Assembly (NCBI RefSeq): GCF_900176385.1
Contig: NZ_FWXN01000006.1
Location: forward strand, 186,001 to 250,000
DNA from: Janibacter indicus
GTDB lineage: Bacteria > Actinomycetota > Actinomycetes > Actinomycetales > Dermatophilaceae
Direction of reading: 5' to 3'
DNA length: 64,000 nucleotides
The number at the start of each line of letters is the position of its first letter. The stretch's first letter is position 1. The position numbers were made by a program, and so were the translations under genes. Under the pieces are notes generated by a model, which worked only from the letters and a program-made list of their open reading frames with translations, did no database searches and was not told where the DNA came from. Below, one piece after another: positions 2,055 through 19,505 of this stretch.

Positions 2055-2890
2055 CTGCGGTGGCGCACCCTGACGAACGCCCCGGCCTGATGCTCCGTGT
2101 GGGAGCCGCGACCGACACCGGGCGGGTCCGTGACCACAACGAGGACTCGGCGCTGGCCGAGGGCGGGATCTTCGTCGTCGCCGACGGCATGGGCGGACAC
2201 GCGGCCGGCGAGGTCGCGAGCGGCATCGCCGTCGAGACGATGCGGGAGCTCGTCACGCGTGGCGAGCTGACCTCCGACGACGTCACCCGCCAGCTGCTCG
2301 TGGCCAACGAGCGCATCCTCGAGGGGGTCGCGTCGCACCCCGAGCAGCGCGGCATGGGCACGACCGCCACCGGGATCGTGCTCGTCACCGCCGGCGGGTC
2401 CGACCACTGGGCCGTCTTCAACGTCGGCGACTCACGGGTCTACCGGTGGATCGACGGGACCCTCAGCCAGGTGACCGTCGACCACTCCGAGGTGCAGGAG
2501 CTCGTCGACGCCGGCGTCATCACCGCCGAGGAGGCCCGGGTGCACCCGGCCCGCAACGTCGTCACCCGCTCCCTGGGCACCGACTACGCCTACCACTCCG
2601 ACGTCTGGGTCCTGCCGCCCTACGCCGGTGAGCGCTTCGTCATCTGCAGCGACGGCCTGACCAACGAGATCACCGACGAGCGGTTGCGTGAGATCCTGCA
2701 GCAGTGCCCCGACCCCCAGGTCGCGGCCGAGGAGCTCGTCCGCGCCGCGGTCGAGGCCGGGGGCAGGGACAATGTGACCGTCGTCGTCGTCAACCTCGAC
2801 GGCGACGTCGGGGACGACCTGTCGGAGACGAGCCCGCGGCAGCCGGGTGACGACACCACCCCGCGAGAGATCGTCAGCGAGGAGAAGTGA
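2051..2890 (+). CDS. PP2C-family Ser/Thr protein phosphatase
   Basis: 279 residues; GTG start overlapping the previous stop. All PP2C metal-site motifs are present: RDHNEDS near residue 30, VADGMGGH near 45, the GDSRVYRW strand near 126, CSDGLTN near 200 and GRDNVTVVVV near 238. It is a Mn/Mg-dependent PstP-type phosphatase predicted to remove phosphates placed by the kinase encoded at 5138. There is no transmembrane segment, unlike the usual membrane-anchored PstP, so it is cytosolic. Its position with two FHA proteins and a kinase makes a local phosphorylation switch for the secretion machine likely. Confidence 0.95.
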   Translation: MTAVAHPDERPGLMLRVGAATDTGRVRDHNEDSALAEGGIFVVADGMGGHAAGEVASGIAVETMRELVTRGELTSDDVTRQLLVANERILEGVASHPEQRGMGTTATGIVLVTAGGSDHWAVFNVGDSRVYRWIDGTLSQVTVDHSEVQELVDAGVITAEEARVHPARNVVTRSLGTDYAYHSDVWVLPPYAGERFVICSDGLTNEITDERLREILQQCPDPQVAAEELVRAAVEAGGRDNVTVVVVNLDGDVGDDLSETSPRQPGDDTTPREIVSEEK

Positions 2891-2892
2891 CC

Positions 2893-5137: not shown

Positions 5138-6835
5138 GTGAGCAGCGCACTTCCTCCGGAGCTGCCCGGGCTGGACTACGTCCAGCCCCTCGGGTCGGGC
5201 GGCTATGCCGACGTCTTCCTCTACGAGCAGCAGATGCCGCGGATGAAGGTCGCGGTCAAGGTGCTCAAGACCGAGGGCCTGACCCAGGCGATCCAGCAGC
5301 AGTTCATCGACGAGGCCAACACCATGGCCCAGCTCGCCGACCACCCCTACATCGTCCAGGTCTTCCGCTCGGACACCAGCGACGACGGCCGGCCGTACCT
5401 CATCATGAAGTACTACCCGCCGCCCAACCTCGCCCAGCGGGCGCGGGCGGCGCGCTTCTCCGTCGAGGAGGTGCTGCGCACCGGGATCCAGCTCTCGAGC
5501 GCTGTCGAGACGGCCCACCGGGCTGGCGTCATCCACCGCGACATCAAGCCGGCCAACGTGCTCGTCAGTCAGTACGGCTCGCCGGGCCTGACCGACTTCG
5601 GCATCGCCGGTCGCGGTGGTGCGCTCGAGGAGCTCGACGACGACATCGGCGTCTCCATCCCGTGGGCCCCGCCGGAGGTGCTCTTCGGGCAGAGCAACGG
5701 CGACGCGCGGGCCGACGTCTACTCGCTCTCGGCCACCCTGTGGCAGCTGCTCGTCGGGCGCTCGCCCTTCGAGGTGCCGGGCGGGGACAACTCCGCCTAT
5801 GCGCTCATGCCACGCATCCGCTCCAACCCGCCGCCGACGACGGGCCGGGCCGACGTGCCGCAGTCGCTCGAGCGACTGCTGGCGCAGGCGATGAGCAAGA
5901 ACCCCCTCGCCCGGCCGGCGAGCGCCATCGAGTTCGCCCGCAGCCTTCAGGCGATCGAGCAGGACGAGCGTTTTTCGCGCACGGCGATCGTCGTCCTCGA
6001 CGAGCTCGGCCACTCCGGGGACTCCGGCGCGAGCCACGCCGACTCACCCGACCGCACCCAGCTGCGCGCGAACTCCGGCTCGGGGTCGGGCGGCGGTCCG
6101 CGACCCGTGCCGGGCGCGCCCCCGCCCCCGCTGGGCCAGCCGGTCATCGGCGGCCAGCTGAGCGGCGGACGCACGATCGGCGGGACCGGCCCGGTGCCCA
6201 TCGCCGAGGGCGTCGCGGCCCGGGCGACGGGCGGCCCGCCGCCTCCCACGGTCTCCGGCCCGCGGCCGTCGCAGCGCAGTGCCCCGCGACCCGGCCACGC
6301 CGGCCCGCCGCAGGCTTCGGGACCGCGCCCGCCGCAGGCCTCCGGGCCCCGGCCGACGCAGTCCCCGGGCCCGCAGCCGCCACCATCCACCCGTCGGCGG
6401 TGGGTGCCGGTGGCGGCCGTGGCGGCCGCCGTCGTCGTGCTCGCCGGCGTCATCGGCACCACGATCGCCGTGACCGGCGACGGTGGTGGGGAGCAGACCA
6501 CCGGTGGCACCTCGGGCAGCACCGGTGACGGGTCCTTCGGGGCGACGGTCCCCACCGCCGACCTGAAGCAGGAGGGGTCCAGCGCCGTCTTCGTCATGTC
6601 GGTCGACGGCTACGAGGACGGCGACAAGTACTTCGTCCGGATGGCGCCCGAACGTGGCGACCTCGACCGGGCGACCGCCTACGGGGTGCAGCAGATCGCG
6701 GACGGAACGGGGACCTTCTCCCAGGAGTTCGGCACGGCCGACCAGCTGTGCGGTCAGGCACAGGCGCGGCGCGGCGAGGAGCCTGACGAGGTGCGGACCC
6801 CGTGGAGCGACGTCAAGTGCGTGGACAAGGAATGA
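5138..6835 (+). CDS. Transmembrane Ser/Thr protein kinase (PknB-like, no PASTA)
   Basis: 565 residues, GTG start. Kinase domain ~15-275: glycine loop GSGGYADV near 20, catalytic Lys in VAVKVL, HRDIKPANV near 132, DFG near 153, and APPE in place of APE. The stretch between DFG and APPE has few Thr/Ser (GRGGALEELDDDIG...), unusual for a kinase activated by loop autophosphorylation. A Pro/Gly-rich linker (~300-415) leads to a single transmembrane helix (~420-442) and an extracellular domain of ~120 residues with two Cys (LCGQ, VKCV). There are no PASTA repeats. The extracellular domain is homologous to the product of the next gene. The stop overlaps the next start (ATGA). Confidence 0.93.
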   Translation: MSSALPPELPGLDYVQPLGSGGYADVFLYEQQMPRMKVAVKVLKTEGLTQAIQQQFIDEANTMAQLADHPYIVQVFRSDTSDDGRPYLIMKYYPPPNLAQRARAARFSVEEVLRTGIQLSSAVETAHRAGVIHRDIKPANVLVSQYGSPGLTDFGIAGRGGALEELDDDIGVSIPWAPPEVLFGQSNGDARADVYSLSATLWQLLVGRSPFEVPGGDNSAYALMPRIRSNPPPTTGRADVPQSLERLLAQAMSKNPLARPASAIEFARSLQAIEQDERFSRTAIVVLDELGHSGDSGASHADSPDRTQLRANSGSGSGGGPRPVPGAPPPPLGQPVIGGQLSGGRTIGGTGPVPIAEGVAARATGGPPPPTVSGPRPSQRSAPRPGHAGPPQASGPRPPQASGPRPTQSPGPQPPPSTRRRWVPVAAVAAAVVVLAGVIGTTIAVTGDGGGEQTTGGTSGSTGDGSFGATVPTADLKQEGSSAVFVMSVDGYEDGDKYFVRMAPERGDLDRATAYGVQQIADGTGTFSQEFGTADQLCGQAQARRGEEPDEVRTPWSDVKCVDKE

Positions 6836-7329
6836 GTGGGATGTCAGGTCGTGTCCCGCCGCCGGGCCAGCCCGCGGCGCCCGAGCCGCCGTCGAAGGGG
6901 ATCGAGGTGGGCTTGATCCCCTTCGTCGCCAGCATCGTCGGGGTGCTCCTCGTCATCGGCATCATCGGGGGCGTCCTGTGGGTCACCCGCGACGGCGAGG
7001 AGGTCAGCTCGTCCACGAGCACCGGGGCCGAGACCCCCGGCGGCGCCCTGTCGGGGCGGCCCACGCTCAAGGTGAGCGTCGAGGGCAACCAGCTCACGTG
7101 GACGATGGACTACGAGGGCCTGCGGGAGGGCGACTACTTCAGGATCAAGACCGGTGGTGCCCCCGACGCCATCACGGGAGATGGGACGCCGGTCCCACGT
7201 GGCCAGACGGAGTACGAGCAGACGATCTCCCCGGGGGTGCGGCAGTGTGGCATGGTGCAGGTCGTCCGGGGTGGCGGGACGCAGACCTCAGGGTGGTCGG
7301 CGGTCCAGTGCGAGGAGGCAGGTAGCTGA
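6832..7329 (+). CDS. Single-pass membrane protein with the kinase-type extracellular domain
   Basis: 165 residues, ATG overlapping the kinase stop. A short Pro-rich cytosolic tail is followed by one transmembrane helix (~32-52) and an extracellular domain of ~100 residues. That domain matches the end of the kinase: a DYEGLREGDYFRI block mirrors DGYEDGDKYFVRM, and both share a late QCG/LCG, a W-x-x-V-x-C near the end, and two Cys at similar spacing. It is effectively the sensor domain without a kinase, so it could compete for the same ligand or dimerise with the kinase. The stop shares 1 nt with the next ATG. Confidence 0.85.
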   Translation: MSGMSGRVPPPGQPAAPEPPSKGIEVGLIPFVASIVGVLLVIGIIGGVLWVTRDGEEVSSSTSTGAETPGGALSGRPTLKVSVEGNQLTWTMDYEGLREGDYFRIKTGGAPDAITGDGTPVPRGQTEYEQTISPGVRQCGMVQVVRGGGTQTSGWSAVQCEEAGS

Positions 7330-8045
7330 TGAGTGACAGCGTCGTGACGGTGGACTTCTGCGGAGAGGTCCACGAGGCACCGCGGGAGGGGACGCTGACG
7401 ATCGGCCGCGAGGGCGACGTCGAGATCGACGACAACCCCTTCCTCCACCGCCACTTCCTGCAGATCACCCACGAGGGCGGCTGGTGGTGGCTGACCAACA
7501 TCGGCTCGACCCTCACGGCGACCGTCGCCGACAAGAAGGGCCTCTTCCAGGCCTGGCTCAACCCCGGCGCCCGCATCCCGCTCGCCTTCGAGCGGGTCAC
7601 CGTGTGGTTCACCGCCGGACCGACGACCTACGACTTCGACGTCCTCGTCGGCAACCCCAGCTTCACGTCCGTCGACCACGAGGTGCTGCTGCCGCAGCAG
7701 GGCGGCGAGACCACCGTGGGGCGAGTCGCCTTCACCCCTGACCAGAAGCTGCTCGTCGTCGCGCTGTGCGAGGACTTCCTGCGTCGTGACGGCGCCGGCC
7801 AGGGGACGATCCCGTCCTCCGCCGTGGCCGCCGAGCGGCTGGGGTGGAAGGTCACGAAGTTCAACCGCAAGCTCGACAACGTCTGCCAGAAGCTCGCCGA
7901 CGCCGGGATCCGCGGCCTGCACGGCGGCCCGGGCAAGCTCGCGAGCAACCGCAAGTCACGGCTCGTCGAGCACGCCCTGTCCACGCGCATGGTGACCGAC
8001 GAGGACCTCGTCCTGCTCGACGACCCCGAGACAGTGGAGGGCTGA
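7329..8045 (+). CDS. FHA-like protein with C-terminal helical (winged-helix-like) region
   Basis: 238 residues. Residues ~15-65 look like a divergent FHA domain: TIGREGDVEID, then LHRHFLQI where SRRHxxI is expected, then NIGSTLTATV where LGSTNGTxV is expected. The canonical Ser and Asn of the phosphothreonine pocket are thus altered, so phosphopeptide binding is uncertain. The C-terminal half (LCEDFLRRD, AAERLGWKVTKFNRKLDNVCQKL) reads like a helix-turn-helix or winged helix followed by a Lys/Arg-rich tail. Cytosolic. It is coupled to the membrane gene upstream and likely links phospho-signalling to another protein or DNA. Confidence 0.8.
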   Translation: MSDSVVTVDFCGEVHEAPREGTLTIGREGDVEIDDNPFLHRHFLQITHEGGWWWLTNIGSTLTATVADKKGLFQAWLNPGARIPLAFERVTVWFTAGPTTYDFDVLVGNPSFTSVDHEVLLPQQGGETTVGRVAFTPDQKLLVVALCEDFLRRDGAGQGTIPSSAVAAERLGWKVTKFNRKLDNVCQKLADAGIRGLHGGPGKLASNRKSRLVEHALSTRMVTDEDLVLLDDPETVEG

Positions 8046-8052
8046 GCGCCGG

Positions 8053-9471
8053 ATGAGCTCGCAGGGGGAGCAGAGCAGGGGCACCGGCAGACGTCGCCGT
8101 CCGGTGTGGCTGCGGGTCGTGTCCGGTGGCATCGTCTCGCTGCTGGTCGTCGTCGCGGCGATCTTCGCCACCCGATCCGACGGTCAGCCGGTGCACGACG
8201 TCGCGCTGACCGACGGTGGTCTGTGGGTCTCCGGCGGTCGGACCGGCTACTGGGGGCGGGTCAACACGGGCGCCCACCAGTTCGACCTCGTGCTGAGCGG
8301 CGCGGGTGACGCCGGGACCGGCGAGGACGTGCTGCGCGCCGACGTGCTCCAGGACGGCCGCAATGCCGTCGGGGTCACCGCCGACCGTCGCCTCATCGCC
8401 TTCGACACGCGGACGGGGGATCGGATCAAGGGCGAGGTGCAGGTGCCCGAACCCACCTCGGTGACCGGAGTCGACATCCACGAGCCCGACCGGGTCGCCC
8501 TCGGTGGTGACACCCTCGCGGTCGTCGACCACGACACCGGCCGGATCTGGGGCAAGCGCCTCGACCCCGCGGGCGGCACCCCGATCGCCGACCTGCTCGA
8601 CACCGGCGAGCTCGACACGGTGGGCAAGCAGGCCGCGGTGACCGTCGACCTCGACGGCGACATCATGGCGGTCTCTGCCGACAGCGGCCGGGTCGTCGAG
8701 ATCCCCGCGGAGGGTGACGGCTTCGGCCAGCCGATCCGCACCGACCTGGACTTCTCGGGCCGCGCTGCCGACATCACCGCCGTCGGCGACGAGTGGGTCG
8801 TCCTCGACCTCGAGACCGGAGAGGTGATGTCCGAGCACCTGCAGGACCCGCAGCCCATCGCGGGCAGCGGCCAGGACAACGCCGGCGAGGACCTGGCCAT
8901 GGTCGCCCTGCAGCAGCCCGGGCCGGCGAGCGACGTCGTCGGCTACCAGACCCTCGAGCGGGCCGGCTACGCGCGCATCACCGAGGACAGCGACCACGAC
9001 GGCGCCGACGTGGGCGTCGTGTCGGGCCTCGACGAGGGCGACGAGCGCCCGCAGGCGCAGTTCAACAAGATCTCCCGCCCGGTGATCAACGGCGACTGCC
9101 TCTACGCCGCGTGGGGGATGGGCGGCACGATCCTGTGGGGTCGAGCGTGCGGCCAGACCCAGGCGCAGACGAGCCAGCTGCCCGTCGCCGGCAACCTCAC
9201 CCGTCGCAACGGCGTCGCCGTGCGGCACGACCGTGGCCAGCTCGTCCTCAACGACCTCGACACCGGCCGGGTCTACGACCTGACCCTGCCCGGTGACCTG
9301 CGCATCGACACCTGGCCCGGAGGCGCCCCGCGTGGCGACCCGGAGCGCTACGACCCCTCCGGGTGGGGCGACGACCCCAGCCCGAGCAGCACGACGAGCA
9401 CCCGGCGACCCGGCAGCAGCCCGAGCACGTCGCGCACGAGCAGCCCCACGACATCGACGAAGACCGGATGA
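8053..9471 (+). CDS. Membrane-anchored beta-propeller-like protein
   Basis: 472 residues. A basic cytosolic start (RGTGRRRRP) is followed by one transmembrane helix at ~17-37. The ~390-residue extracellular part has repeated strand patterns typical of PQQ/YncE-like propellers (GGLWVSGGRTGYWGRVN, RRLIAFDTRTGDRI, DTLAVVDHDTGRIWG, RGQLVLNDLDTGRVYDL). The last ~45 residues are Ser/Thr/Pro-rich (SPSSTTSTRRP). Related clusters in actinobacteria place a fibronectin-type-III propeller protein at this spot before MoxR; no FN3 domain is obvious here. Likely an envelope component of the secretion locus. Confidence 0.8.
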   Translation: MSSQGEQSRGTGRRRRPVWLRVVSGGIVSLLVVVAAIFATRSDGQPVHDVALTDGGLWVSGGRTGYWGRVNTGAHQFDLVLSGAGDAGTGEDVLRADVLQDGRNAVGVTADRRLIAFDTRTGDRIKGEVQVPEPTSVTGVDIHEPDRVALGGDTLAVVDHDTGRIWGKRLDPAGGTPIADLLDTGELDTVGKQAAVTVDLDGDIMAVSADSGRVVEIPAEGDGFGQPIRTDLDFSGRAADITAVGDEWVVLDLETGEVMSEHLQDPQPIAGSGQDNAGEDLAMVALQQPGPASDVVGYQTLERAGYARITEDSDHDGADVGVVSGLDEGDERPQAQFNKISRPVINGDCLYAAWGMGGTILWGRACGQTQAQTSQLPVAGNLTRRNGVAVRHDRGQLVLNDLDTGRVYDLTLPGDLRIDTWPGGAPRGDPERYDPSGWGDDPSPSSTTSTRRPGSSPSTSRTSSPTTSTKTG

Positions 9472-9484
9472 GGAAGCAGGAACG

Positions 9485-10453
9485 ATGAGCGTCTCCCAGG
9501 AGCAGGCCAGCTGGTTCAGCCAGGCCTTCCAGCAGATGGTCGGCAACGTCGACCAGGTCGTCCTCGGCAAGCAGCACACCGTGCGGCTGGCCCTCACCTG
9601 CCTGCTCTCCGAGGGGCACCTGCTCCTCGAGGACTATCCCGGCACGGGCAAGACCCAGCTCGCCCGTGCCGTCGCGGGCACGGTCCAGGGCTCGTCGAGC
9701 CGGATCCAGTTCACCCCGGACCTGCTGCCCAGCGACGTCACCGGCGTGACGATCTACGACCAGCAGACCAAGAAGTTCGACTTCCACCGCGGCCCGGTCT
9801 TCGCGACCATCGTGCTCGCCGACGAGATCAACCGCGCCTCGCCCAAGACGCAGTCCGCGCTCCTCGAGGTCATGGAGGAGGGCCGGGTCACCGTCGACGG
9901 CACGACCCACGAGGTCGGCCGGCCCTTCATGGTCGTCGCCACGCAGAACCCCATCGAGCAGGCCGGGACCTACCGGCTACCCGAGGCGCAGCTCGACCGT
10001 TTCCTCATGAAGACCTCGCTCGGTTACCCCGACCACGAGGCGACCGTCGCGGTCCTCGCCGACGCGGCCCGCCGCGACCGTACCCAGGGTCTGCGGCCCG
10101 TCGTCACGGCCAAGGTCGTGCAGGACATGGCGGGCCTGGCCGACCAGGTGCACATCGACCCGGCGATCCTCGCCTACGTCTCGCGGATCGCCGAGGAGAC
10201 CCGACGACACCGCAACATCCGCCTGGGCCTGTCGGTGCGTGGTTGTCTGGCCTTCGTGCGCTGTGCCAAGACCTGGGCCGCGAGCCAGGGCCGCACCCAC
10301 GTGGTGCCCGACGACATCAAGGTCCTCGCGGAGCCCGTCATGACGCACCGGCTGCTGCTCACCGCCGAGGCCGAGTTCGCAGGCGTGCGCACGAGCGAGG
10401 TCATCGCCCAGATCCTCGGCGAGGTCGCCCCGCCGACCGAGCGGGTCGCCTGA
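9485..10453 (+). CDS. MoxR-family AAA+ ATPase
   Basis: 322 residues from ATG 9485 (MSVSQEQASWF). An upstream in-frame start at 9293 lies in the previous gene and is rejected. Walker A PGTGKTQ near residue 54, Walker B/sensor LADEINRASPK near 110, sensor-1 ATQNPIEQ near 142 and the LPEAQLDRF block near 158 are all canonical for MoxR. These AAA+ proteins act as chaperones, usually beside DUF58 and VWA or transglutaminase proteins, as here. It is the first gene of the MoxR-DUF58-transglutaminase set in the ESX locus. Confidence 0.95.
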   Translation: MSVSQEQASWFSQAFQQMVGNVDQVVLGKQHTVRLALTCLLSEGHLLLEDYPGTGKTQLARAVAGTVQGSSSRIQFTPDLLPSDVTGVTIYDQQTKKFDFHRGPVFATIVLADEINRASPKTQSALLEVMEEGRVTVDGTTHEVGRPFMVVATQNPIEQAGTYRLPEAQLDRFLMKTSLGYPDHEATVAVLADAARRDRTQGLRPVVTAKVVQDMAGLADQVHIDPAILAYVSRIAEETRRHRNIRLGLSVRGCLAFVRCAKTWAASQGRTHVVPDDIKVLAEPVMTHRLLLTAEAEFAGVRTSEVIAQILGEVAPPTERVA

Positions 10454-10472: not shown

Positions 10473-11891
10473 ATGACGACAGGACTGCCCACACCCCCGC
10501 CGCAGGCCCCGCGCGGGCGCGGCCGGGTGCGCGAGGGCGGTGCCATGCCGGGCGGCACCCGGCAGGAGGACTCCCGTCTGGAGCAGATGGCGACCTCGGC
10601 CCGGCTGCGGTCGACGGGTACCAAGCGCACGGTGACCCTGCCCGGGGCCTCGGTCGTCAACGCCGGTCGCGGCGCGACCCGAGCCGTGCGGCGCGGCGTG
10701 ACGGCGACGGACGAGCGGGTCCGGCGCCAGTGGTTCGGTGGGCGGCTCGACTGGATCACGCCTCTCGGCTGGACCCTCCTGGGCCTGTCCGTCGTGCTGT
10801 GGGTGCTCTCGGCCCTGCTCGGCTGGGCCGAGCCGGCGATCATCGCCGCGACGATGCTCGCGCTCGTCGTCGTGTGCGTCCTGCTGTCGATCGGGAGCCA
10901 CCGGGCCGACGTCGAGCTCGTCGTCGAACCTCTGCGGGCGGAGATCGGGGACCTGGCGCAGGCCCACGTCGTGCTCACCAACTCGACGCGGCGCACGATG
11001 CTCCCTTCGCTCGTGCGGTTGCCCGTCGGTGACCACGAGGAGGTGCTGCCGGTCCCGCTCCTGCGCAAGGGGGCCAGCCACCGCACCGCCTTCCCCATCG
11101 CGACGCCGCGCCGCGGCGTCATCCCCGTCGGTCCGGCGACGACCGTGCAGGGCGACCCGCTGGGGATCACCCGCCGGACCGTGACCTTCGGCGGCGTGCA
11201 GCTCATGCACGTGCACCCGCGTCGGATCGCCCTCGAGTCCGGGGCCCACGGCCTCCTGCGCGACCTCGAGGGCGAGGTCACCCCCGAGCTGTCCATGGCC
11301 GACATCGACTTCCACGCGCTGCGCGAGTACGAGCCCGGCGACGACCGGCGCTACGTGCACTGGCGCTCCTCGGCCAAGCACGACCGTCTCCTCGTGCGCC
11401 AGTTCCAGGAGACCCGGCGCTCGCACCTCGGGATCGTCGTCGACACCGACCCCGCGATGTACCCCGGGGGCGAAGGGGACGTGGAGACGGCCATCGCCGC
11501 GGCGGCCTCGCTCATGGTCCAGTCGATCACCGACGAGCAGGAGGCCTCCGTCGTGTGCAACGACGGCTTCGCCTCCCGCACCACCGTCCCGCTCGTCCTC
11601 GACACGCTGACGACCGCAACCGTCGGCCGGGTCGACCTCGTGCGCTCCGCGCGGCTGCTCGTCCAGCAGGCGCCGGACTCCTCGGTCGCCGTCCTCGTCA
11701 CCGGCCCGGGCCGGGCCTTCCTCGAGATCCAGCAGTGCCTCGGCGAGTTCGAGACCGAGGTGCACAAGGTGGCCGTCATCGTCGACTCCGCGGCCGACGC
11801 GAGCCTGCGACGCCTGCGGGGGCTGAGCATCGTGACCATCGGTGAGCTCACCGACCTGTCCACCGTCTCCGGGGGGCTGGTGCCGGCATGA
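10473..11891 (+). CDS. DUF58 membrane protein
   Basis: 472 residues. A disordered basic N-terminus (~1-90) precedes two transmembrane helices (~93-140). The DUF58 signature lies near 286-302 (YEPGDDRRYVHWRSSAKH), followed by RQFQETRR, and then a VWA-like alpha/beta fold (IVVDTDPAM, VAVLVTG). The partner is the MoxR ATPase 20 nt upstream and the transglutaminase-like protein that overlaps its end by ATGA. The trio is a common actinobacterial module of unknown biochemical function. Confidence 0.92.
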   Translation: MTTGLPTPPPQAPRGRGRVREGGAMPGGTRQEDSRLEQMATSARLRSTGTKRTVTLPGASVVNAGRGATRAVRRGVTATDERVRRQWFGGRLDWITPLGWTLLGLSVVLWVLSALLGWAEPAIIAATMLALVVVCVLLSIGSHRADVELVVEPLRAEIGDLAQAHVVLTNSTRRTMLPSLVRLPVGDHEEVLPVPLLRKGASHRTAFPIATPRRGVIPVGPATTVQGDPLGITRRTVTFGGVQLMHVHPRRIALESGAHGLLRDLEGEVTPELSMADIDFHALREYEPGDDRRYVHWRSSAKHDRLLVRQFQETRRSHLGIVVDTDPAMYPGGEGDVETAIAAAASLMVQSITDEQEASVVCNDGFASRTTVPLVLDTLTTATVGRVDLVRSARLLVQQAPDSSVAVLVTGPGRAFLEIQQCLGEFETEVHKVAVIVDSAADASLRRLRGLSIVTIGELTDLSTVSGGLVPA

Positions 11892-14317
11892 GCGGCGGAC
11901 GGACCACCGACGTCAACGTCATCGGGGCCCCCAAGGAGGGGATGATCAAGCCCCAGCTGACCGCCAAGGAGCAGGTCCGGGCGACGCTCGGCCGGATGCG
12001 TCCGGGGCCGGCGCACTGGGTCGACACCGTCTTCACCATCGCGGTCGTCGCCTGCGGGCTCGTCGGGCTGCGCACCGTCGTCTTCGGGTGGGAGTGGTGG
12101 CGCGCCGCCGCCGTCGGCGTCGTCCTCGGCCTCGTGCTCGGGCACATCCAGGGGACCTACCGCTGGCCGCTCGTCGCGACCACCGCGCTGGGCGCGGTCA
12201 TGTACTTCCTCCTCGGCGGCCTCCTCGCGGTGCGCGACGACGTCAAGTGGGGCGTGCTGCCCACGGGGCAGACCTTCAAGGACCTGGCCGCAGGCCCGAT
12301 CTCCGGCTGGATGGACCTGCTGACGCTCGTGCCACCCGTCGACGCGCGCGGGCACATCCTCGCCGTGCCGCTCTTCATCGCCCTCGTCGCCACGACGCTG
12401 ACGTACGCGACCGCCCGCATCACCCGCTCCCGACTGCGGCTCGTCGCGACCCCCTTCGCCCTGCTCGCCGTGACCACTGCGCTCGGCACGACGGAGCCGG
12501 CCTCACTCCTCGTCCAGGGGCTGCTCCTCGCGCTGCTGCTCATCGGCTGGGTCGTCGCCCGCGACCACCTCGACCCCGACATCGGCATCGCCCGGCCGGG
12601 GATGCGCCGACCGGCTCTCTCGCGGGTCGTCTCCGGCACCCTGATCCTGCTCGTCGCGGCGCTCGTCGGCGGCACGCTCGGGCCCTACCTGCCCGGTCGC
12701 GACCACGAGGACGAGCGTCGGGTCGTGCGCACGGGCGTCGTGCCGGGCCACGACACGACGATCATGGCCTCGCCGCTCAGCCGCTTCCGCAACTTCACCG
12801 AGGACAGCCCCTCGCAGCTCTACAACCGCGAGATCCTCCGCGTCGAGGGGGTGCCCCGCAACACCCCGATGCGCCTGGCGACGCTCGACACCTGGGACGG
12901 CTCGACCTGGGGCATCGCCGGGCGCGGCGACACCCGGGCCGACGCCGGCCGCTCCTTCCAGCAGTTCGGGCGGCGTGTCGGCGTGCTCGCGAGCGGGCGC
13001 CCCACGCAGGTCAAGGTCACCGTGCCCGAGGAGGGCTACACGGGCGGCTGGCTGCTCACCTCGGGCCGGGTCGAGGGCATCGAGTTCCTCGGTGCCGCGC
13101 AGAAGCGCCTGCAGGACAAGGCCTGGCTCAACCTCAGCACCAACACCGTCCTCGTGCCGCCGGGGCTGCGCCCCGGCGACACCTACGAGGTGCGCACCGC
13201 GCTGCCGCCGGAGGGGTCCGGCGCCCTGCCCGAGAGCCTGCCCGTGTCGCGGGGCGACATGCCCATGACCGGCGACACCACCTTCGTCGATGCCCGGATC
13301 CAGGTGTGGAAGGGCGACTCGCAGGACCCGTGGCAGCAGTTCCGCCAGATCGCCACGACGATGCGCGAGGAGGGCACCTACACCGACGGCACCCCGGCCA
13401 CCGGGTCGGAGGCACCGAGCGACAAGGAGCGGGCCGCGACCGCGCGGACCGCCCTGCTCTACCCGGCCGGTCACGGTCAAGGCCGCCTCGACCGCTTCCT
13501 CAACTCCGAGGTGCTCGCCGGCAACGACGAGCAGTACGCCGCGACCCTCGGCATCATCGGCAACCGCCTCGGCATCCCCACCCGCGTCGTCGTCGGCGCC
13601 ACGGCGACCGACGACGGGCTCCTGCGCGGCCGTGACATCCACGCGTGGGTCGAGGTGCGGCTGCGCGACGGCAGCTGGTACCAGGTGCTGCCGCCGACCT
13701 TCGTCCCCGACCGGGCCGAGCAGGCCACCCCCGCCGACAACGAGCCCCAGGAGTGGGACAAGCCGGCGGCCGAGCCCCCGCCGCCCCCGCCGGAGGAGCC
13801 TGCCCCGCCGCCCGAGCCGGTCGTCGACTGGAGCTCGCCGTCGACCTGGCCGCTGTGGGCCCAGCTCCTCGCCGTCTTCGTCCTGCTGCCGCTGCTCGTG
13901 CTGCTGCTCACCCCGGTCGTCACCGCGGTCCGCCGCGCCGTGCGGCTGCGGCGGGGCACGCCGGACCAGCGGGTCGGTCGCGCGTGGAACGACCTGCTCG
14001 AGGAGGCCCGCGTCCTCGGGGTGCCGCTGCCGGCCGGTGGCACCCGCATGGAGCAGGCCCGGGCCCTCGGCCCGCAGGTCGACGCCGCACCCGCCGCGAT
14101 GCGGGCCGACGCGCTCGTCTTCGGCCCCGCCCCAGCGGACCCGACGGCCGTGGGGCACTGGCAGGGTGAGCTGCGGCAGGTGCGGCGACGACTGCGGCGC
14201 ACCGCCCCCTTCGGCAGTCGCGTGCGGGCGACCTTCGACCCCCGCTCCCTGCTGTCCCGCCACGAGGACATCGGGATGTACGACACGACCACCTCCACCC
14301 GTAAGGCGCTGAGATGA
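11888..14317 (+). CDS. TgpA-like transglutaminase-domain membrane protein, catalytic Cys replaced
   Basis: 809 residues: about six N-terminal transmembrane helices (~45-265), a large extracytoplasmic region (~270-650), a Pro/Glu-rich stretch (EPPPPPPEEPAPPPEP) and a further helix at ~657-680, then a cytosolic tail. The transglutaminase core is recognisable near 540-600: GNDEQYAATLGIIGNRLGIPTRVVVGA and DIHAWVEV. In active members the first block reads G-x-C-x-Q-F/Y-A; here Asp occupies the Cys position, and the usual final DP-TP is PPTF. The active-site His remains. It is probably a non-catalytic binding version. ATGA overlaps on both sides. Confidence 0.9.
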   Translation: MSGGRTTDVNVIGAPKEGMIKPQLTAKEQVRATLGRMRPGPAHWVDTVFTIAVVACGLVGLRTVVFGWEWWRAAAVGVVLGLVLGHIQGTYRWPLVATTALGAVMYFLLGGLLAVRDDVKWGVLPTGQTFKDLAAGPISGWMDLLTLVPPVDARGHILAVPLFIALVATTLTYATARITRSRLRLVATPFALLAVTTALGTTEPASLLVQGLLLALLLIGWVVARDHLDPDIGIARPGMRRPALSRVVSGTLILLVAALVGGTLGPYLPGRDHEDERRVVRTGVVPGHDTTIMASPLSRFRNFTEDSPSQLYNREILRVEGVPRNTPMRLATLDTWDGSTWGIAGRGDTRADAGRSFQQFGRRVGVLASGRPTQVKVTVPEEGYTGGWLLTSGRVEGIEFLGAAQKRLQDKAWLNLSTNTVLVPPGLRPGDTYEVRTALPPEGSGALPESLPVSRGDMPMTGDTTFVDARIQVWKGDSQDPWQQFRQIATTMREEGTYTDGTPATGSEAPSDKERAATARTALLYPAGHGQGRLDRFLNSEVLAGNDEQYAATLGIIGNRLGIPTRVVVGATATDDGLLRGRDIHAWVEVRLRDGSWYQVLPPTFVPDRAEQATPADNEPQEWDKPAAEPPPPPPEEPAPPPEPVVDWSSPSTWPLWAQLLAVFVLLPLLVLLLTPVVTAVRRAVRLRRGTPDQRVGRAWNDLLEEARVLGVPLPAGGTRMEQARALGPQVDAAPAAMRADALVFGPAPADPTAVGHWQGELRQVRRRLRRTAPFGSRVRATFDPRSLLSRHEDIGMYDTTTSTRKALR

Positions 14318-17300
14318 AGCTGATGTTCACCCTGCGAGGGTCGGGCAACGAGGACACCGACCTCGTCGCCACGGTCGACGGCCGCACGACCGTCGGCGAC
14401 CTCGCCGAGCACCTGGTCCTGTCCGACCCGGAGCGGCAGCGCAGCGGCGGTGCGGCGCACGAGCGCTCGGACCTCGGCGAGCACACGCTCGCCCTCGTCG
14501 ACGAGAACTACCGCGCGGTCGACCCCAACACCACGGTCCAGGAGTCGGGCCTGCGGTCCGGCGCGCACCTCACCGTCACCCGCCGCTCGTCGGGCTACAA
14601 GGACACCGAGGCCCCGATCGCCGTCGCCAAGGTCGTCGCCGGCCCGGACGCGGGCCGGGAGTACCAGCTGCAGCGAGGGACCTCGCACGTCGGCCGCGGA
14701 CGCGACTGCGAGGTGCAGATCAACGACGCGTCCGTCTCGCGCAAGCACGCCAAGCTCCTCGTGGCCGACGTCGTCGAGGTGACCGACCTCGGCTCGTCCA
14801 ACGGCGTCATCGTGGGTGACGAGCAGGTCGACCGGGCGATCCTGCGCGAGGGCGAGACCTTCACGATCGGCGACACGACCTTCGAGATCTCCGCCAAGAC
14901 GCGGGCCGCAGGCGTGACGACGACCGACTCCGGCGACGTGGCCTTCACCCGGTCGCCGCGCATCGCGCCGATCTACCAGGGGCTGCAGTTCGAGGTGCCC
15001 GAGCTGCCCGAGCGCGGCAAGCCGCAGCGCATCCCGCTGGCGATGATGCTCGTGCCGGTCTTCATGGGCGCGACCCTCTTCGCCATCACCCGCTCGCGCT
15101 TCACGATCATGTTCATGCTCATGATGCCGATGATGATGCTCGCCAACACGTGGGAGTCCAAGCGGCGCGTGCGGCTGGACTTCGAGGAGGCGATGGAGGA
15201 CTTCCGCGAGGACGTGGGCTACCTCGTCGAGGACATCGAGGTCGAGCTCGACCGCGAGCACGACATCCGGCGGCAGGAGCACCCGGCCGTCACCGACTTC
15301 GCCCGGGCGGTCGCCGTCCACCACCCGCTGATGTGGACCCGACGGCCCAACGACCCGGGCTTCCTCGAGTACCGGCTCGGTCTGGGCGTGCGCCCCAGCC
15401 GCAGCGAGATCAAGCTGCCCAAGATGGGACGCACCCGGGCCGAGGCCTGGCTCGAGGTCTCGCAGCTCATGCAGGGCCTGGGCGTCGTCGCCGACGTCCC
15501 GGTCACCGCGCACCCGCTGCTCGACGGCGCGATCGGCGTCTCCGGTCCGCGCGAGGCCGCGCTCGGGCTCGCCCGCTCGCTCGTCGTGCAGACGATGGCC
15601 GCGCACTCGCCGGCCGAGGTGGTCCTGTGCGCCCTGGCGTCGACGACCTCCGCGCGCGACTGGGACTGGCTCAAGTGGTCCCCGCACACCTCGTCCCCGC
15701 AGAGTCCGCTCGACGTGCAGCACACCGCGAGCTCCGGCCCGGGGTGCGCGGCGATCATGGAGCAGCTCGAGGGGCTCGTGGCCGCCGGCTCCGAGCGCGA
15801 CAGCTCGACGCCGACGACCGGCCCGGCCGTCGTCGTGCTCGTCGAGAACGACGCCCCCGTGGAGCGGGCGCGCCTCGTCCAGCTCGCCGAGGCCGGGTGG
15901 CGCCACCGCATCGTCGTCATCTGGGTCGCCCCGGTGACCGAGCAACTGCCCGCCGCGTGCCGCACCTTCGTCGAGGTCGCCGAGGACGGCAGCTGCCAGG
16001 TCGGCTGGGTCGGACCGGCCCAGGTGGCCAGCGGGGTGCAGACCGACCTCATCCGGGTCGAGGATGCCGTCGCGGCAGCCCGCAACCTGGCCCCGATGAC
16101 CGACTCCAGCGCGGTCTCCCAGGACGACTCCGACATCCCGCGCTCGGTCTCCTACCTGGCGCTCGTCGGCACCGAGATCGCCCACTCCGAGATGGCGGTC
16201 ATCGAGCGGTGGAACGAGAACCGCTCGATCCTCACGGGGCGGCACGCTCCGCCCACCCCGAGCCGCAAGCCGGGCTCCCTTCGCGCCGTCATCGGGCAGT
16301 CCGCGATGGGCACGCACAGCGTCGACCTGCGCACCGACGGCCCGCACGCGCTCGTCGGTGGTACCACCGGCGCCGGCAAGTCCGAGCTGCTCCAGGCCTG
16401 GATCCTCGGCATGGCGACGGCCAACAGCCCGCAGCGGGTGACCTTCCTGCTCGTCGACTACAAGGGTGGTTCGGCCTTCCGCGACTGCGTCGAGCTGCCG
16501 CACACCGTCGGCATGGTCACCGACCTGTCGCCGCACCTCGTGCGGCGAGCGCTCGCGTCGCTGTCGGCGGAGCTGCACTACCGAGAGCACCTGCTGGCGC
16601 GCTTCAAGGCCAAGGACCTCGTCGAGCTCGAGCGCCGCGGTGAGGTCGAGGCACCACCGAGCCTGATCATCATCGTCGACGAGTTCGCCGCGCTCGTGCA
16701 GGAGGTGCCCGACTTCGTCGACGGCGTCGTCAACATCGCCCAGCGTGGCCGCTCGCTCGGCATCCACCTGATCCTCGCGACGCAGCGTCCCGCCGGCGTC
16801 ATCAAGGACAACCTGCGCGCCAACACCAACCTGCGCATGGCCCTGCGCATGGCGGACGAGGACGACTCGTCCGACGTGCTCGGCACCAAGGACGCCGCCT
16901 ACTTCGACCCGGGTCTGCCCGGGCGTGCGATGGCCAAGTCCGGTCCCGGACGTCTCGTGCCCTTCCAGACCGGCTACGCCGGTGGCTGGACGAGCAACAC
17001 CCCACCCCCGCCGGACATGCTCGTCTCCACGCTCACCTTCGGTGCGCCCGTCACCTGGGAGCTGCCCGCCAAGCCGAAGGGGGACGAGGACGCCGACCTC
17101 GGCCCGACCGACATCCAGCGCGTCGTCGAGACGGTCGAGAAGGCTCGCGTCGAGTCGGAGATCCCCATCCCGCGCAAGCCGTGGCTGCCCGAGCTCGCCG
17201 AGGTCTACGACCTCGCGAAGCTGCCGACCGAGCGCCGCGACGACGAGCTGGTCATCGGCATCGCCGACAACCCCGAGAACCAGAGCCAGCCGACGATCTC

Positions 17301-18726
17301 CTTCCGCCCGGACGCCGAGGGCAACCTCGCGGTCTTCGGCGCGTCCGGGTCGGGCAAGAGCTCCTTCCTGCGGACGATCGCCATCGCGGCCGGCTTCACC
17401 GTGCGCGGTGGTCCCTGCCACGTCTACGGGCTCGACTTCGGCAACCGCGGTCTGGCCATGCTCGAGGAGCTGCCGCACGTCGGCAGCATCATCTCCGGCC
17501 AGGACGAGGAGCGCGTCAAGCGGCTCATCACGATGCTGCGGGAGATCATCGAGGAGCGGGCCGTGCGCTACTCCAAGGCCAATGCCACGACGATCACCCA
17601 GTACCGCCGGCTCACCGGCAACACCTCCGAGCCGCGGATCTTCGTGCTCGTCGACGGCCTGACCGCCTTCCGCAATGCCTACGAGTCGGCCGGCGCGCTG
17701 ATGAAGTGGCTCGACGCCTTCACCTCGCTGCTCGCGGACGGCCGACCGGTCGGGGTGCACTTCGTCCTGTCGGTCGACGCCCGCAACGGCCTGCCGGTGT
17801 CGATGGGCTCGTCGGTGCAGTCGCGCTTCTCGCTGCGGATGGCGACCGAGGACGACTACTCCTTCCTCGGGCTGCCCACCGACGTGCTCACCCCCGACTC
17901 GCCGCCCGGGCGCGGTCTGTTCAAGAAGCGTGAGGTCCAGGTCGCCGTCCTCGGCGGCACGTCCGACGCGTCGGAGCAGTCCCGCATGGTGCGCGGCTTC
18001 GCCGAGACGATGGCCAAGTCCGGGGTGCCCAGGGCGCCCGAGGTCGCCTCGCTGCCCGAGATCGTGCCGGCGGCGGACCTGCCGGCGCAGGTCGACGAGC
18101 TGCCGGTCATCGCGATGAACTCCGACGACCTCGCACCGATGGCCATCGACCCACGCGGTGGCTTCGTCGTCACGGGTCCGCCCGGGAGCGGGCGGACCAC
18201 GACGATGGTCCAGCTGGCCAAGGCCATCAAGCGGTGGCGGCCCAGCGCCCAGCTGCACCTCATCACGCTGCGGCGCAACTCCGAGCTGACCGCACTGCCG
18301 GAGTTCGATCGCACGGCCACACGCGAGGACGACATCAAGGAGCTGTGCGAGCTGCTCAAGGAGCGGGCGCTCGACGAGAGCTCGCCGCTTCAGGTGCTCA
18401 TGGTCGAAAAGCTCGACGACCTGAACACCTCGCCCTACCAGAGCCCGCTGCAGGACGCGATCAAGCCACTCGTCGACAACGACCACTTCGTCGTGGCCGA
18501 GGCGGACCCGAGCGCCATGACCACGAGCATGGGTCTGCCGGGCCTGGTCAAGGCGGCACGCTCGGGGATGGCGCTGGCCCCCGACGGGTCCGAGTCCTCG
18601 ATGATCTTCAAGACCAACTTCCCGCCGCTCGCGCGGGTCTTCATGCCCGAGGGGCGGGGGGTCCTGGTGCGCAAGGGCAAGGCGGAAATCGTCCAGATCG
18701 CGCGCCCGGAGATGGCCGTTCGATGA
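14314..18726 (+). CDS. eccC: Type VII secretion ATPase, EccC/EssC-type (FtsK/SpoIIIE)
   Basis: 1470 residues. Residues ~1-92 look like a ubiquitin-like (YukD/EccD-type) domain: TTVGDLAEHL, HTLALVDENY, TTVQESGLRSGAHLTV. An FHA domain follows (~105-195; VGRGRD, SVSRKHAKLL, LGSSNGV), then a transmembrane pair (~243-275). Three P-loop domains carry Walker A at ~683 (GGTTGAGKSE), ~1008 (GASGSGKSS) and ~1287 (GPPGSGRTT, Lys replaced by Arg). Walker B is classical only in domain 1 (IIIVDEFAAL). An N-terminal FHA is typical of Firmicutes EssC rather than mycobacterial EccC. It is the motor for exporting WXG100 proteins such as the two encoded just downstream. Confidence 0.93.
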   Translation: MKLMFTLRGSGNEDTDLVATVDGRTTVGDLAEHLVLSDPERQRSGGAAHERSDLGEHTLALVDENYRAVDPNTTVQESGLRSGAHLTVTRRSSGYKDTEAPIAVAKVVAGPDAGREYQLQRGTSHVGRGRDCEVQINDASVSRKHAKLLVADVVEVTDLGSSNGVIVGDEQVDRAILREGETFTIGDTTFEISAKTRAAGVTTTDSGDVAFTRSPRIAPIYQGLQFEVPELPERGKPQRIPLAMMLVPVFMGATLFAITRSRFTIMFMLMMPMMMLANTWESKRRVRLDFEEAMEDFREDVGYLVEDIEVELDREHDIRRQEHPAVTDFARAVAVHHPLMWTRRPNDPGFLEYRLGLGVRPSRSEIKLPKMGRTRAEAWLEVSQLMQGLGVVADVPVTAHPLLDGAIGVSGPREAALGLARSLVVQTMAAHSPAEVVLCALASTTSARDWDWLKWSPHTSSPQSPLDVQHTASSGPGCAAIMEQLEGLVAAGSERDSSTPTTGPAVVVLVENDAPVERARLVQLAEAGWRHRIVVIWVAPVTEQLPAACRTFVEVAEDGSCQVGWVGPAQVASGVQTDLIRVEDAVAAARNLAPMTDSSAVSQDDSDIPRSVSYLALVGTEIAHSEMAVIERWNENRSILTGRHAPPTPSRKPGSLRAVIGQSAMGTHSVDLRTDGPHALVGGTTGAGKSELLQAWILGMATANSPQRVTFLLVDYKGGSAFRDCVELPHTVGMVTDLSPHLVRRALASLSAELHYREHLLARFKAKDLVELERRGEVEAPPSLIIIVDEFAALVQEVPDFVDGVVNIAQRGRSLGIHLILATQRPAGVIKDNLRANTNLRMALRMADEDDSSDVLGTKDAAYFDPGLPGRAMAKSGPGRLVPFQTGYAGGWTSNTPPPPDMLVSTLTFGAPVTWELPAKPKGDEDADLGPTDIQRVVETVEKARVESEIPIPRKPWLPELAEVYDLAKLPTERRDDELVIGIADNPENQSQPTISFRPDAEGNLAVFGASGSGKSSFLRTIAIAAGFTVRGGPCHVYGLDFGNRGLAMLEELPHVGSIISGQDEERVKRLITMLREIIEERAVRYSKANATTITQYRRLTGNTSEPRIFVLVDGLTAFRNAYESAGALMKWLDAFTSLLADGRPVGVHFVLSVDARNGLPVSMGSSVQSRFSLRMATEDDYSFLGLPTDVLTPDSPPGRGLFKKREVQVAVLGGTSDASEQSRMVRGFAETMAKSGVPRAPEVASLPEIVPAADLPAQVDELPVIAMNSDDLAPMAIDPRGGFVVTGPPGSGRTTTMVQLAKAIKRWRPSAQLHLITLRRNSELTALPEFDRTATREDDIKELCELLKERALDESSPLQVLMVEKLDDLNTSPYQSPLQDAIKPLVDNDHFVVAEADPSAMTTSMGLPGLVKAARSGMALAPDGSESSMIFKTNFPPLARVFMPEGRGVLVRKGKAEIVQIARPEMAVR

Positions 18727-18772
18727 CGAATGTCGTTGTGCGACAAGGCAATTGGCTTCTCCTCTGTTAGTT

Positions 18773-18828
18773 GGGGAGTGGGTGGGGAGTCCTCCCCATG
18801 TACCTCGCGGGCACGTTGTCCCTAGTGT
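18773..18828 (+). promoter_or_regulatory. Promoter with GGGGAGTCCTCCCC palindrome (site A)
   Basis: Palindrome GGGGAGTCCTCCCC at 18784-18797, preceded by an extra half-site GGGGAGT at 18773-18779, which is 11 nt (one helical turn) upstream. A -10-like TAGTGT lies at 18823-18828, 25 nt after the palindrome. The same palindrome and spacing occur at 28833 and 35161. Likely an activator site just upstream of -35 for the WXG100 gene pair. Confidence 0.5.
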
Positions 18829-18908
18829 TGACCTCAGTCGGGCAGGGGAACAGCAGCCCGCAGGGAACACAACAGACCAGCAGCAACACCTACACTCAGG
18901 AGGACAAG

Positions 18909-19181
18909 ATGGCTTGGCTCGGAATGAACCTCGAGACCGTCAAGGGCGAGCTGCCGAAGTGGCAGAACCTCGCTGAGGAGCTCAACGGCGTCATCAACAA
19001 CGTCAACACCCAGGTGCAGCAGGCCAACGAGGCCTGGAACGGCCCGGACTCGGAGAAGTTCGTCTCGGAGTGGGAGGGTCAGCACCGCCCGGCGCTCGAG
19101 AAGATCAAGGCCCTCATCGAGCAGCTCTGCGAGCAGCTCCAGAGCGACATCCAGCAGCAGGCCGAGGTCTCCGGCTCCTGA
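18909..19181 (+). CDS. WXG100 family type VII secretion protein (EsxA-like), copy 1
   Basis: 90 residues from ATG 18909, with a perfect AGGAGG at 18898-18903; a longer in-frame start at 18771 has no such site. A helical hairpin with the W-x-G turn at AWNGPDSEKF and long flanking amphipathic helices is the WXG100 signature. There is no signal peptide. It is exported as a folded dimer by the EccC ATPase encoded immediately upstream, probably with the next gene product as partner. The ~180-nt leader with its own promoter implies higher expression than the ATPase. Confidence 0.95.
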   Translation: MAWLGMNLETVKGELPKWQNLAEELNGVINNVNTQVQQANEAWNGPDSEKFVSEWEGQHRPALEKIKALIEQLCEQLQSDIQQQAEVSGS

Positions 19182-19226: not shown

Positions 19227-19505
19227 ATGGGTGCAAACCTGACCGACGGAATGGACACTGGCAGGGTCAAGGAGGTCGCGGGTCAGCTCAACACCGAGGC
19301 CGGCCGCGTGGGCGAGATCAGCTCCAACGGCACCTCGCAGGCGGGCACGCTCAAGGAGAACTGGCTCGGCCCGGACTCCGAGCAGTTCGGTGACGCCTGG
19401 GGCGACGCCGCCAAGGCCCTCCAGCAGGCCCAGGACGCGCTGCAGGCCTACTCCAAGGCCGCCATCCAGCAGGCCGACCAGCAGGAGAAGGGCTCCGGCG
19501 CCTGA
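19227..19505 (+). CDS. WXG100 family type VII secretion protein, copy 2
   Basis: 92 residues, ATG after AAGGAGAG. The turn is W-L-G (NWLGPDSEQF), followed by GDAWGDAAKALQQAQDAL. The GPDSE-F segment is shared with copy 1, so the two are paralogues that probably form a heterodimer. The C-terminus (QQADQQEKGSGA) has no clear Y-x-x-x-D/E export motif, so the signal may be carried by the partner or be composite. The transcript ends at the strong hairpin at 19523-19558. Confidence 0.95.
   Translation: MGANLTDGMDTGRVKEVAGQLNTEAGRVGEISSNGTSQAGTLKENWLGPDSEQFGDAWGDAAKALQQAQDALQAYSKAAIQQADQQEKGSGA

Follow-up and report, generated by a model that had tools for sequence, protein, structure and literature searches.

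Among the described type VII secretion systems (T7SSs), the actinobacterial T7SSa uses EccC, an FtsK-type ATPase with a membrane pair and several nucleotide-binding domains for which no FHA domain is given in the passages drawn on here (PMC11217815, PMC9600267), and works with EccB and EccD. In T7SSb, the ATPase EssC/YukB has N-terminal regulatory domains, FHA1 and FHA2, in front of its membrane pair, and YukD is a separate protein. Both systems thus include a small ubiquitin-like (Ubl) beta-grasp domain without a C-terminal Gly-Gly, which is fused to a membrane domain with 12 transmembrane segments in EccD and free in YukD/EsaB. A 2024 survey lists the types T7SSa to T7SSj and, as far as its passages go, reports FHA domains for the ATPase of T7SSd, TsdC, and no Ubl for this type (PMC11217815). 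Here we analysed by computation a stretch of 64,000 nucleotides of Janibacter indicus (contig NZ_FWXN01000006.1, positions 186,001 to 250,000; referred to as the window), in which a single gene at 14314..18726 on the forward strand encodes an ATPase that combines these parts differently: a Ubl domain is fused in front of an FHA domain and an FtsK/EssC-type ATPase. With EccC the protein shares its FtsK type, the membrane pair, several nucleotide-binding domains and the actinobacterial origin, and it differs in having an FHA domain; with EssC it shares the position of regulatory domains before the membrane pair, and it differs in their kind, Ubl-FHA instead of FHA1-FHA2. We found no description of such a fusion in the literature searched (listings and passages of papers), and the system in the window is, within that literature, a T7SS variant without earlier description.

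The ATPase gene is one uninterrupted open reading frame of 1470 amino acids (aa), identified as a Ubl-FHA-FtsK/EssC-type ATPase by Pfam, NCBIfam and motif positions, in a genome of 3.42 Mb. Its start codon overlaps the stop codon of the upstream TgpA-type gene (ATGA, 14314-14317), and its closest named relatives are found at seven loci of Janibacter, with 87-90% identity. The protein begins with the Ubl domain of 92 residues (residues 1-92, 14314..14589), followed by the FHA domain (residues 99-197, 14608..14904), a membrane hairpin of two hydrophobic stretches (residues ~240-281, 15031..15156), one of which is over the hydropathy cut-off and the other was read by eye, and the ATPase part with three P-loops at residues 683, 1009 and 1288. 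The best stretch for Pfam FtsK_SpoIIIE covers residues 668-827; a Walker-B-like VDE follows the first P-loop, and VDG and VEK follow the other two. A frameshift, an assembly error or a wrongly assigned start as the origin of the fusion was rejected because the reading frame is open, its ATG shares bases with the stop codon before it, and other genomes have the arrangement too. The original prediction, made from the sequence alone, had read the N-terminus as a Ubl-like domain followed by a canonical FHA domain and a membrane pair; AlphaFold2, hhalign, Pfam and hydropathy bear this out, so that the Ubl-FHA-ATPase observation is confirmed and its interpretation as a fused Ubl-FHA-FtsK protein is supported.

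The same prediction had proposed structure modelling of the N-terminus as a check, and the models assign a Ubl fold to residues 1-92 and a GarA/OdhI-like FHA fold to residues 99-197. Residues 1-92 were modelled apart because the PDB searches (Foldseek, VIA) with a model of 206 residues were filled by FHA rows and uninformative for the first domain. Based on an alignment of 24 sequences, AlphaFold2 gave a mean predicted local distance difference test score (pLDDT) of 85.2 and a predicted template modelling score of 0.77, with strands at residues 2-8, 14-20, 57-61 and 84-90, helices at residues 27-37, 39-44 and 47-52, and short bridges between them, which is the ubiquitin order of elements with extra turns after the main helix. 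The best 50 of 1368 Foldseek rows (E up to 10) are ubiquitin, SUMO, T7SS chains or proteins in which we recognised ubiquitin-like domains; among these rows the top query TM-scores are 0.67 (7b9f_X and 7b9s_5), 0.66 (7np7_D1) and 0.62 (7npt_D8), and the others reach at most 0.59. From residue numbers in common with 7b7j, an entry titled EccD5 Ubl, we infer that the top ESX-5 chains are EccD. With VIA, where rows within Z 1 of each other were treated as ties, chain C of toluene monooxygenase (TmoB type; root-mean-square deviation (rmsd) 2.5, 81 aligned) and ESX-3 6umm_B (rmsd 2.6, 79 aligned) both scored Z 9.2, followed by ESX-5 7npt (Z 8.9, rmsd 3.3, 79 aligned), the EccD1 Ubl (Z 8.5, rmsd 3.8, 82 aligned) and the EccD5 Ubl (Z 8.4, rmsd 3.6, 80 aligned); YukD is not among the Foldseek and VIA rows listed, which does not exclude it. 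The pLDDT and the PDB rows listed identify residues 1-92 as a beta-grasp ubiquitin fold. As in the Ubl domains of described T7SSs, a C-terminal Gly-Gly is absent; the domain ends in LTVTRRSSGY and runs into the linker.

As a single sequence, residues 1-92 match Pfam YukD (PF08817) with an E value of 0.057 (14.6-14.8 bits, cut-off 27), which is only suggestive, and NCBIfam EccD with an E value of 0.22. A profile of this first domain (domain 1) was built from 49 non-redundant proteins and compared by hhalign with a profile of 30 EccD Ubl domains taken from loci found with PF08817; the two match with a probability of 95.6 (P 1.2e-8) over 76 of 85 columns. Fifty column-shuffled profiles reached at most 1.2% against the EccD Ubl profile, and a control with the FHA profile of the same proteins yielded 4.1 one way and 2.9 the other. 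The free YukD of L. fermentum matched domain 1 with 82.6%, and a profile of a second sub-clade with 14 rows, 13 of them outside the first profile, matched EccD with 96.3% and domain 1 with 98.2%, with shuffles of at most 0.5%. A PDB sequence search with the domain profile returned weak matches only, among them a redesigned ubiquitin (E 0.073), SAMP1 and OTU1, but also SmtB and an unrelated membrane protein. At the level of profiles, domain 1 is kin to the Ubl domains of EccD.

The second domain is recognised over cut-off by Pfam (PF16697, residues 106-194, E 1.9e-17; PF00498, residues 126-186, E 7.9e-13), and the model of residues 99-197 resembles GarA/OdhI entries with a VIA Z of 18.3. R128, S142, H145, N163 and G164, which we take to be the phosphothreonine-contact set, are invariant in all 24 aligned sequences, and the FHA domain is thus predicted to be probably phosphothreonine-competent. 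The FHA domains of EssC, in contrast, have been reported to lack a phosphothreonine site in the passages available (PMC11217815). C-terminal of the FHA domain lies a Thr-rich stretch, VTTTDSG (14914-14934), a candidate site for phosphorylation by a kinase and recognition by the FHA domain of the same protein; VTTT[DE][SA] also occurs in four related loci (L038, L040, L042, L043) and does not in four others (L041, L044, L045, L052).

The ATPase had originally been assigned to EccC/EssC. FtsK_SpoIIIE domains do follow the FHA domain, but by neither tree nor curated score does the protein belong to EccC or EssC. The best NCBIfam match, EssC (TIGR03928), reaches 550 bits and stays under the cut-off of 778, and the same is true for EccCa (TIGR03924; 360.7 bits, cut-off 509) and EccCb (314 bits, cut-off 347). 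In a tree of 59 ATPase cores (1054 columns; quick IQ-TREE run without bootstrap), from which twenty near-copies, second fetches or fragments had been dropped beforehand and in which the sequence of L145 was incomplete at extraction, one side, with a support of 100, is made up of 50 actinobacterial rows, among them the window ATPase. The other side consists of nine references, namely six EccC-type rows (with an EccC annotation for L162 and L164 only), two EssC proteins of Bacillota and one EssC-like protein (L153); the tree is unrooted, and calling the 50-row side a clade assumes a root outside it. L153, which comes from a genome of 2.2 Mb, has 64% GC in its stretch and is perhaps coriobacterial, groups with EssC and has no domain-1 match. 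The window ATPase lies outside the six EccC-type rows, and its first domain is a Ubl and not the FHA1 of EssC. The labels of Ubl-FHA N-termini within the large branch were set partly by eye. Inside the branch, 35 of 49 locus rows reached 15 bits or more with a domain-1 model, against none of the nine rows outside; among rows not used for the model, 14 of 27 inside the branch reached this score, four of these (L042, L048, L052, L063) being close relatives of the model-building sequences. As this objective label needs eight changes on the tree, the statement about the branch rests on the ATPase cores. One branch ATPase, L154 (G491:C22), is a frame of 1556 aa with a domain-1 match of 40.6 bits in which the family model found no FHA domain; its genome of 1.8 Mb belongs to the same phylum as the window and has 36% GC in the stretch.

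Neither EccB nor EccD was matched at E 1 in the genome carrying the window, and the same searches find both over cut-off in two other genomes (G017, G135). PF08817 likewise stayed below its cut-off in the window genome (best E 0.0126), and EssB/YukC (PF10140) and EsaA (TIGR03929) were without a match, each of these two models being over cut-off in one of 14 control genomes. The EccE model hit three short stretches below threshold (best 20.8 bits, cut-off 108), and it found nothing over cut-off in G017 and G135 either. With no EccB, EccD, EssB or EsaA found and no YukD above cut-off, this genome apparently provides its Ubl in cis. The suggestion that three parts of the secretion core have been merged therefore stands for the domain content of the protein, in a genome where EccB, EccD, EssB and EsaA are without a match. 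A second ATPase of the same kind is encoded in the same genome on contig C28 (L147:5780-9928, reverse strand); its FHA domain is over cut-off, and its first domain (9.5 bits with the domain-1 model) looks like a divergent Ubl, supported as part of the 14-row profile only. In G017, which belongs to the same family as the window genome, an EsaA-like match of 55.7 bits, below the cut-off of 122, lies beside EccB and EccD (G017:C2:347709-348116).

Judged by the matches in other genomes, the fusion is not a one-off but is widespread among actinobacteria, and the ATPases sampled group together. Among 297 genomes of the order, a hand count of the matches listed (start at query residue 20 or earlier, end at about 190, open frame) found at least 82 in which one match covers both Ubl and FHA within a frame of 1300 aa or longer, these frames being assumed to be ATPases; three shorter frames (G206, G030, G200) and later-starting matches such as that of G067 were left out. 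In 198 genomes (assumed to be G000-G197) scanned with PF08817, a match over cut-off was present in 41: three genomes have the fusion and EccD/YukD, 49 the fusion only, 38 EccD/YukD only and 108 neither. The corresponding Fisher test (p 0.0013) ignores kinship, and it was not used as support because fusions less close to that of the window escape the hand count and most genomes with divergent fusions have EccD/YukD. Such divergent or weakly matched N-termini with sub-threshold PF08817 matches were found on frames of 1472-1686 aa in ten genomes (G013, G023, G063, G065, G091, G101, G107, G149, G161, G189), eight of them placed by fetched sequences and G023 and G161 by overlap with fusion matches. 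Relatives of the ATPase also occur on large plasmids (H1, NZ_AP024648.1; H6 and H10, Streptomyces plasmids). A piece of the ATPase gene with 75.9% identity is present at 24002-25193 of MT835585.1, a 28.8-kb record from faeces labelled 'Bacteriophage sp.', which is perhaps a mislabelled bacterial contig. In eight genomes of a family we guess to be bifidobacterial (f4; L070-L077), the best match lies in short EssC-like frames of 645-761 aa, and the two that were read (L071, L072) have a membrane segment without a preceding FHA or Ubl domain.

The ATPase gene ends a run of genes on the forward strand that begins with a PP2C-type protein phosphatase (2051..2890; PF13672, E 1.9e-16), a Pro-rich protein with a C-terminal FHA domain (2887..5130; Pfam FHA, E 2e-8) preceded by a Cys-rich stretch seen by eye, and a membrane Ser/Thr protein kinase (5138..6835; Pfam Pkinase, E 6.5e-37; hydrophobic segment 425-443). 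These are followed by a small single-pass membrane protein (6802..7329; hydropathy 41-59), a protein whose N-terminus looks FHA-like by eye and for which no Pfam family was found at E 0.1 (7329..8045), and a signal-anchored protein with a weak propeller-like match (8053..9471; PQQ_2, E 5.6e-4, below cut-off; hydrophobic 22-40). A MoxR-type AAA ATPase (9293..10453; AAA_3, E 2.8e-62), whose start is uncertain and which overlaps the previous open reading frame, a DUF58 membrane protein (10473..11891; Pfam E 3.5e-9) and the TgpA-type membrane transglutaminase-like protein (11888..14317; TgpA_N, E 4.6e-16; Transglut_core, E 2e-11) complete the upstream part. Directly downstream of the ATPase gene, two genes on the same strand encode WXG100-like proteins, the first with a probable start inside the open reading frame (18771..19181; TIGR03930, E 2.9e-7; W-x-G at residue 89 of the frame) and the second at 19227..19505 (Pfam WXG100, E 2.1e-5; W-x-G at residue 46). 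An FtsK-type ATPase together with a WXG100-like gene, two marks of a T7SS, is thus present, the latter with scores under the curated cut-offs. Thirty loci were compared for context, and in 18 relatives with at least 9.7 kb of upstream sequence, MoxR, DUF58 and TgpA genes and a WXG100-like match accompany the ATPase gene in 15 (all but L056, L061, L062), and a kinase match in seven (L041, L042, L043, L046, L052, L058 and, weaker and on the other strand, L062). Upstream of the phosphatase gene lie two tandem, similar-looking genes (1088-1564 and 1527-2054), the first with a weak LpqN-like match, and a second MoxR-type ATPase gene (35244-36236) is found in the window apart from the T7SS genes.

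We consider it fairly probable that the protein is the T7SS ATPase of a separate actinobacterial lineage, with the Ubl scaffold fused in cis before a probably phosphothreonine-competent FHA domain. The Ubl domains would pair with each other or bind the ATPase ring at its stalk/DUF region, like the EccD Ubl on EccC in ESX-5, where the EccD5 Ubl domains are described to dimerise and to touch the DUF of EccC5 beyond the stalk (PMC8232910), and the Ubl would in this way keep the cytosolic gate in register with no need for EccD. The FHA domain might bind a partner that the kinase of the gene run phosphorylates and its PP2C phosphatase sets free, so that phosphorylation would switch assembly or activity, and the first nucleotide-binding domain would drive export of both neighbouring WXG100-like proteins, its putative substrates. 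A fusion of Ubl and ATPase is to be expected if the essential partner of the Ubl is the ATPase. In the passages available, the hydrophobic core of the EccD3 Ubl is needed for ESX-3 function (PMC11370616), and EsaB is required for secretion, with a role called unclear (PMC5845737). A wider proposal is that these proteins form a third great T7SS ATPase lineage, widespread in Actinomycetota and outside T7SSa-T7SSj, which in organisms such as this one would be a phosphorylation-gated minimal T7SS with a built-in Ubl and without EccB/EccD or EssB/EsaA; this we put forward tentatively and with some doubt.

A number of observations weigh against a T7SS ATPase with a fused Ubl scaffold. In a two-hybrid test, YukD of B. 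subtilis did not contact the ATPase directly (PMC9600267), and the EccD3 Ubl is reported to tolerate most substitutions (PMC11370616). The gathering score of PF08817 is not reached by the window domain, and the best relative (G101) has 26.3 bits versus 27; the free YukD of A. rectalis gave 1.8% to domain 1, and also only 1.4% to EccD, and a five-row sub-clade (A) gave 18% to domain 1 and 1.1% to EccD. In the large branch of the tree, 14 of the 49 locus rows have less than 15 bits or no score with the domain-1 model. Both WXG100 calls are below curated cut-offs, that of the second protein just so, and none of the genes of the run was found at four loci of other sub-clades of the same branch (L147, L151, L158, L163); at a further locus, L159, a kinase was matched and, weakly, a WXG100-like gene. 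In eight of the ten genomes with divergent or weakly matched fusions, the exceptions being G023 and G101, PF08817 also matches another gene over cut-off, and G017 has EccB and EccD as well as a fusion ATPase. A replacement of EccD by a cis Ubl is therefore not general, and because divergent fusions often share a genome with EccD, we lowered our estimate slightly for both the fused T7SS ATPase and the third lineage.

Further points on the same side concern the origin of domain 1, which might be a beta-grasp adaptor of a generic kind (TmoB-like or another), taken up independently and not derived from a T7SS Ubl. TmoB-type chains tie with EccD in VIA, with talin and plexin rows within 1, and therefore the structure says Ubl and not which Ubl. 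In Pfam searches with domain 1 of the 24 relatives, TmoB matches as many members as YukD (7 versus 6 of 24, the best YukD E value being 0.0033), OTU1_UBXL matches three, and eight more families, some of them not ubiquitin-like, match one or two each; moreover, repeated recruitment of the beta-grasp fold has been described (PMC1949818). Against such an adaptor stand the ESX-5 chains with the top TM-scores among the Foldseek rows listed, the nearly full-length profile match to EccD and also to one YukD, in a comparison that covered EccD, YukD, EssC-type and FHA sequences, and the location of the domain in a T7SS-type ATPase. We regard an independently recruited adaptor as unlikely, although it retains some weight.

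The system could also be the published T7SSd of Olsenella and Bifidobacterium, with the fused Ubl as its 'missing' TsdB. Like the system in the window, T7SSd is found in Actinomycetota, is kinase-linked, has an intact phosphothreonine signature on the FHA domain of its ATPase (TsxC) and has no separate Ubl in the passages describing it (Garrett et al. 2024; PMC11217815), and bifidobacterial PFNA operons also contain a kinase, MoxR (aaa-atp), DUF58 and a transglutaminase (PMC6803598). However, TsdC is said to have FHA domains and to cluster with EssC rather than EccC (PMC11217815), which, with no Ubl given, sets it apart from the window ATPase by description, and L153, our guessed stand-in for TsdC in the tree, falls outside the branch. 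In the gene run we recognised nothing comparable to TsdI, a large Ig-domain protein, and the PFNA operon has fn3 before moxR where the window has the propeller-like gene; the word FtsK is absent from the main text of the PFNA operon paper (PMC6803598). Identity with T7SSd thus appears rather improbable, and the fused Ubl is not shown to be its TsdB. We give equally little credence to the view that ATPase and Ubl run a phosphorylation-regulated envelope machine of MoxR, DUF58 and TgpA and not secretion: kinase, phosphatase, FHA and MoxR-DUF58-TgpA genes do dominate the run, and none of the other T7SS membrane parts searched (EccB, EccD, EssB, EsaA) was detected in the genome, but the two WXG100-like genes directly follow, their match recurs in the 15 loci mentioned above, and the plasmid relative H10 adjoins annotated WXG100 and 'putative T7SS-secreted protein' genes. 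A reading of residues 1-92 as a degenerate FHA1, which the tandem FHA1-FHA2 at the same position in EssC (PMC11217815) and the ~110 residues before the detected FHA domain of L153 might suggest, is most improbable and was rejected, as the original prediction's own refuting outcome appeared in neither model nor profile: a central helix is packed with the strands, the PDB rows, including those of VIA, are ubiquitin-like, hhalign gave 4.1% to the FHA domains of the same proteins, and two EssC-type N-termini gave 0.1% to domain 1, a weak control with single sequences that also fail against the FHA profile (0.5 and 0.2).

For the T7SS ATPase with a fused Ubl favoured here, the consequences concern the role of the small Ubl of these systems, whose reported contacts differ between systems (PMC8232910, PMC9600267). 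The natural fusion of Ubl and ATPase suggests that the working partner of the Ubl is the ATPase, and it makes the question of its role reducible to a domain deletion. Proteins annotated merely as 'FtsK/SpoIIIE domain-containing protein' may, as our analysis suggests, have a recognisable T7SS architecture, and if they do represent a third lineage of T7SS ATPases, the Ubl would act on the ATPase itself.

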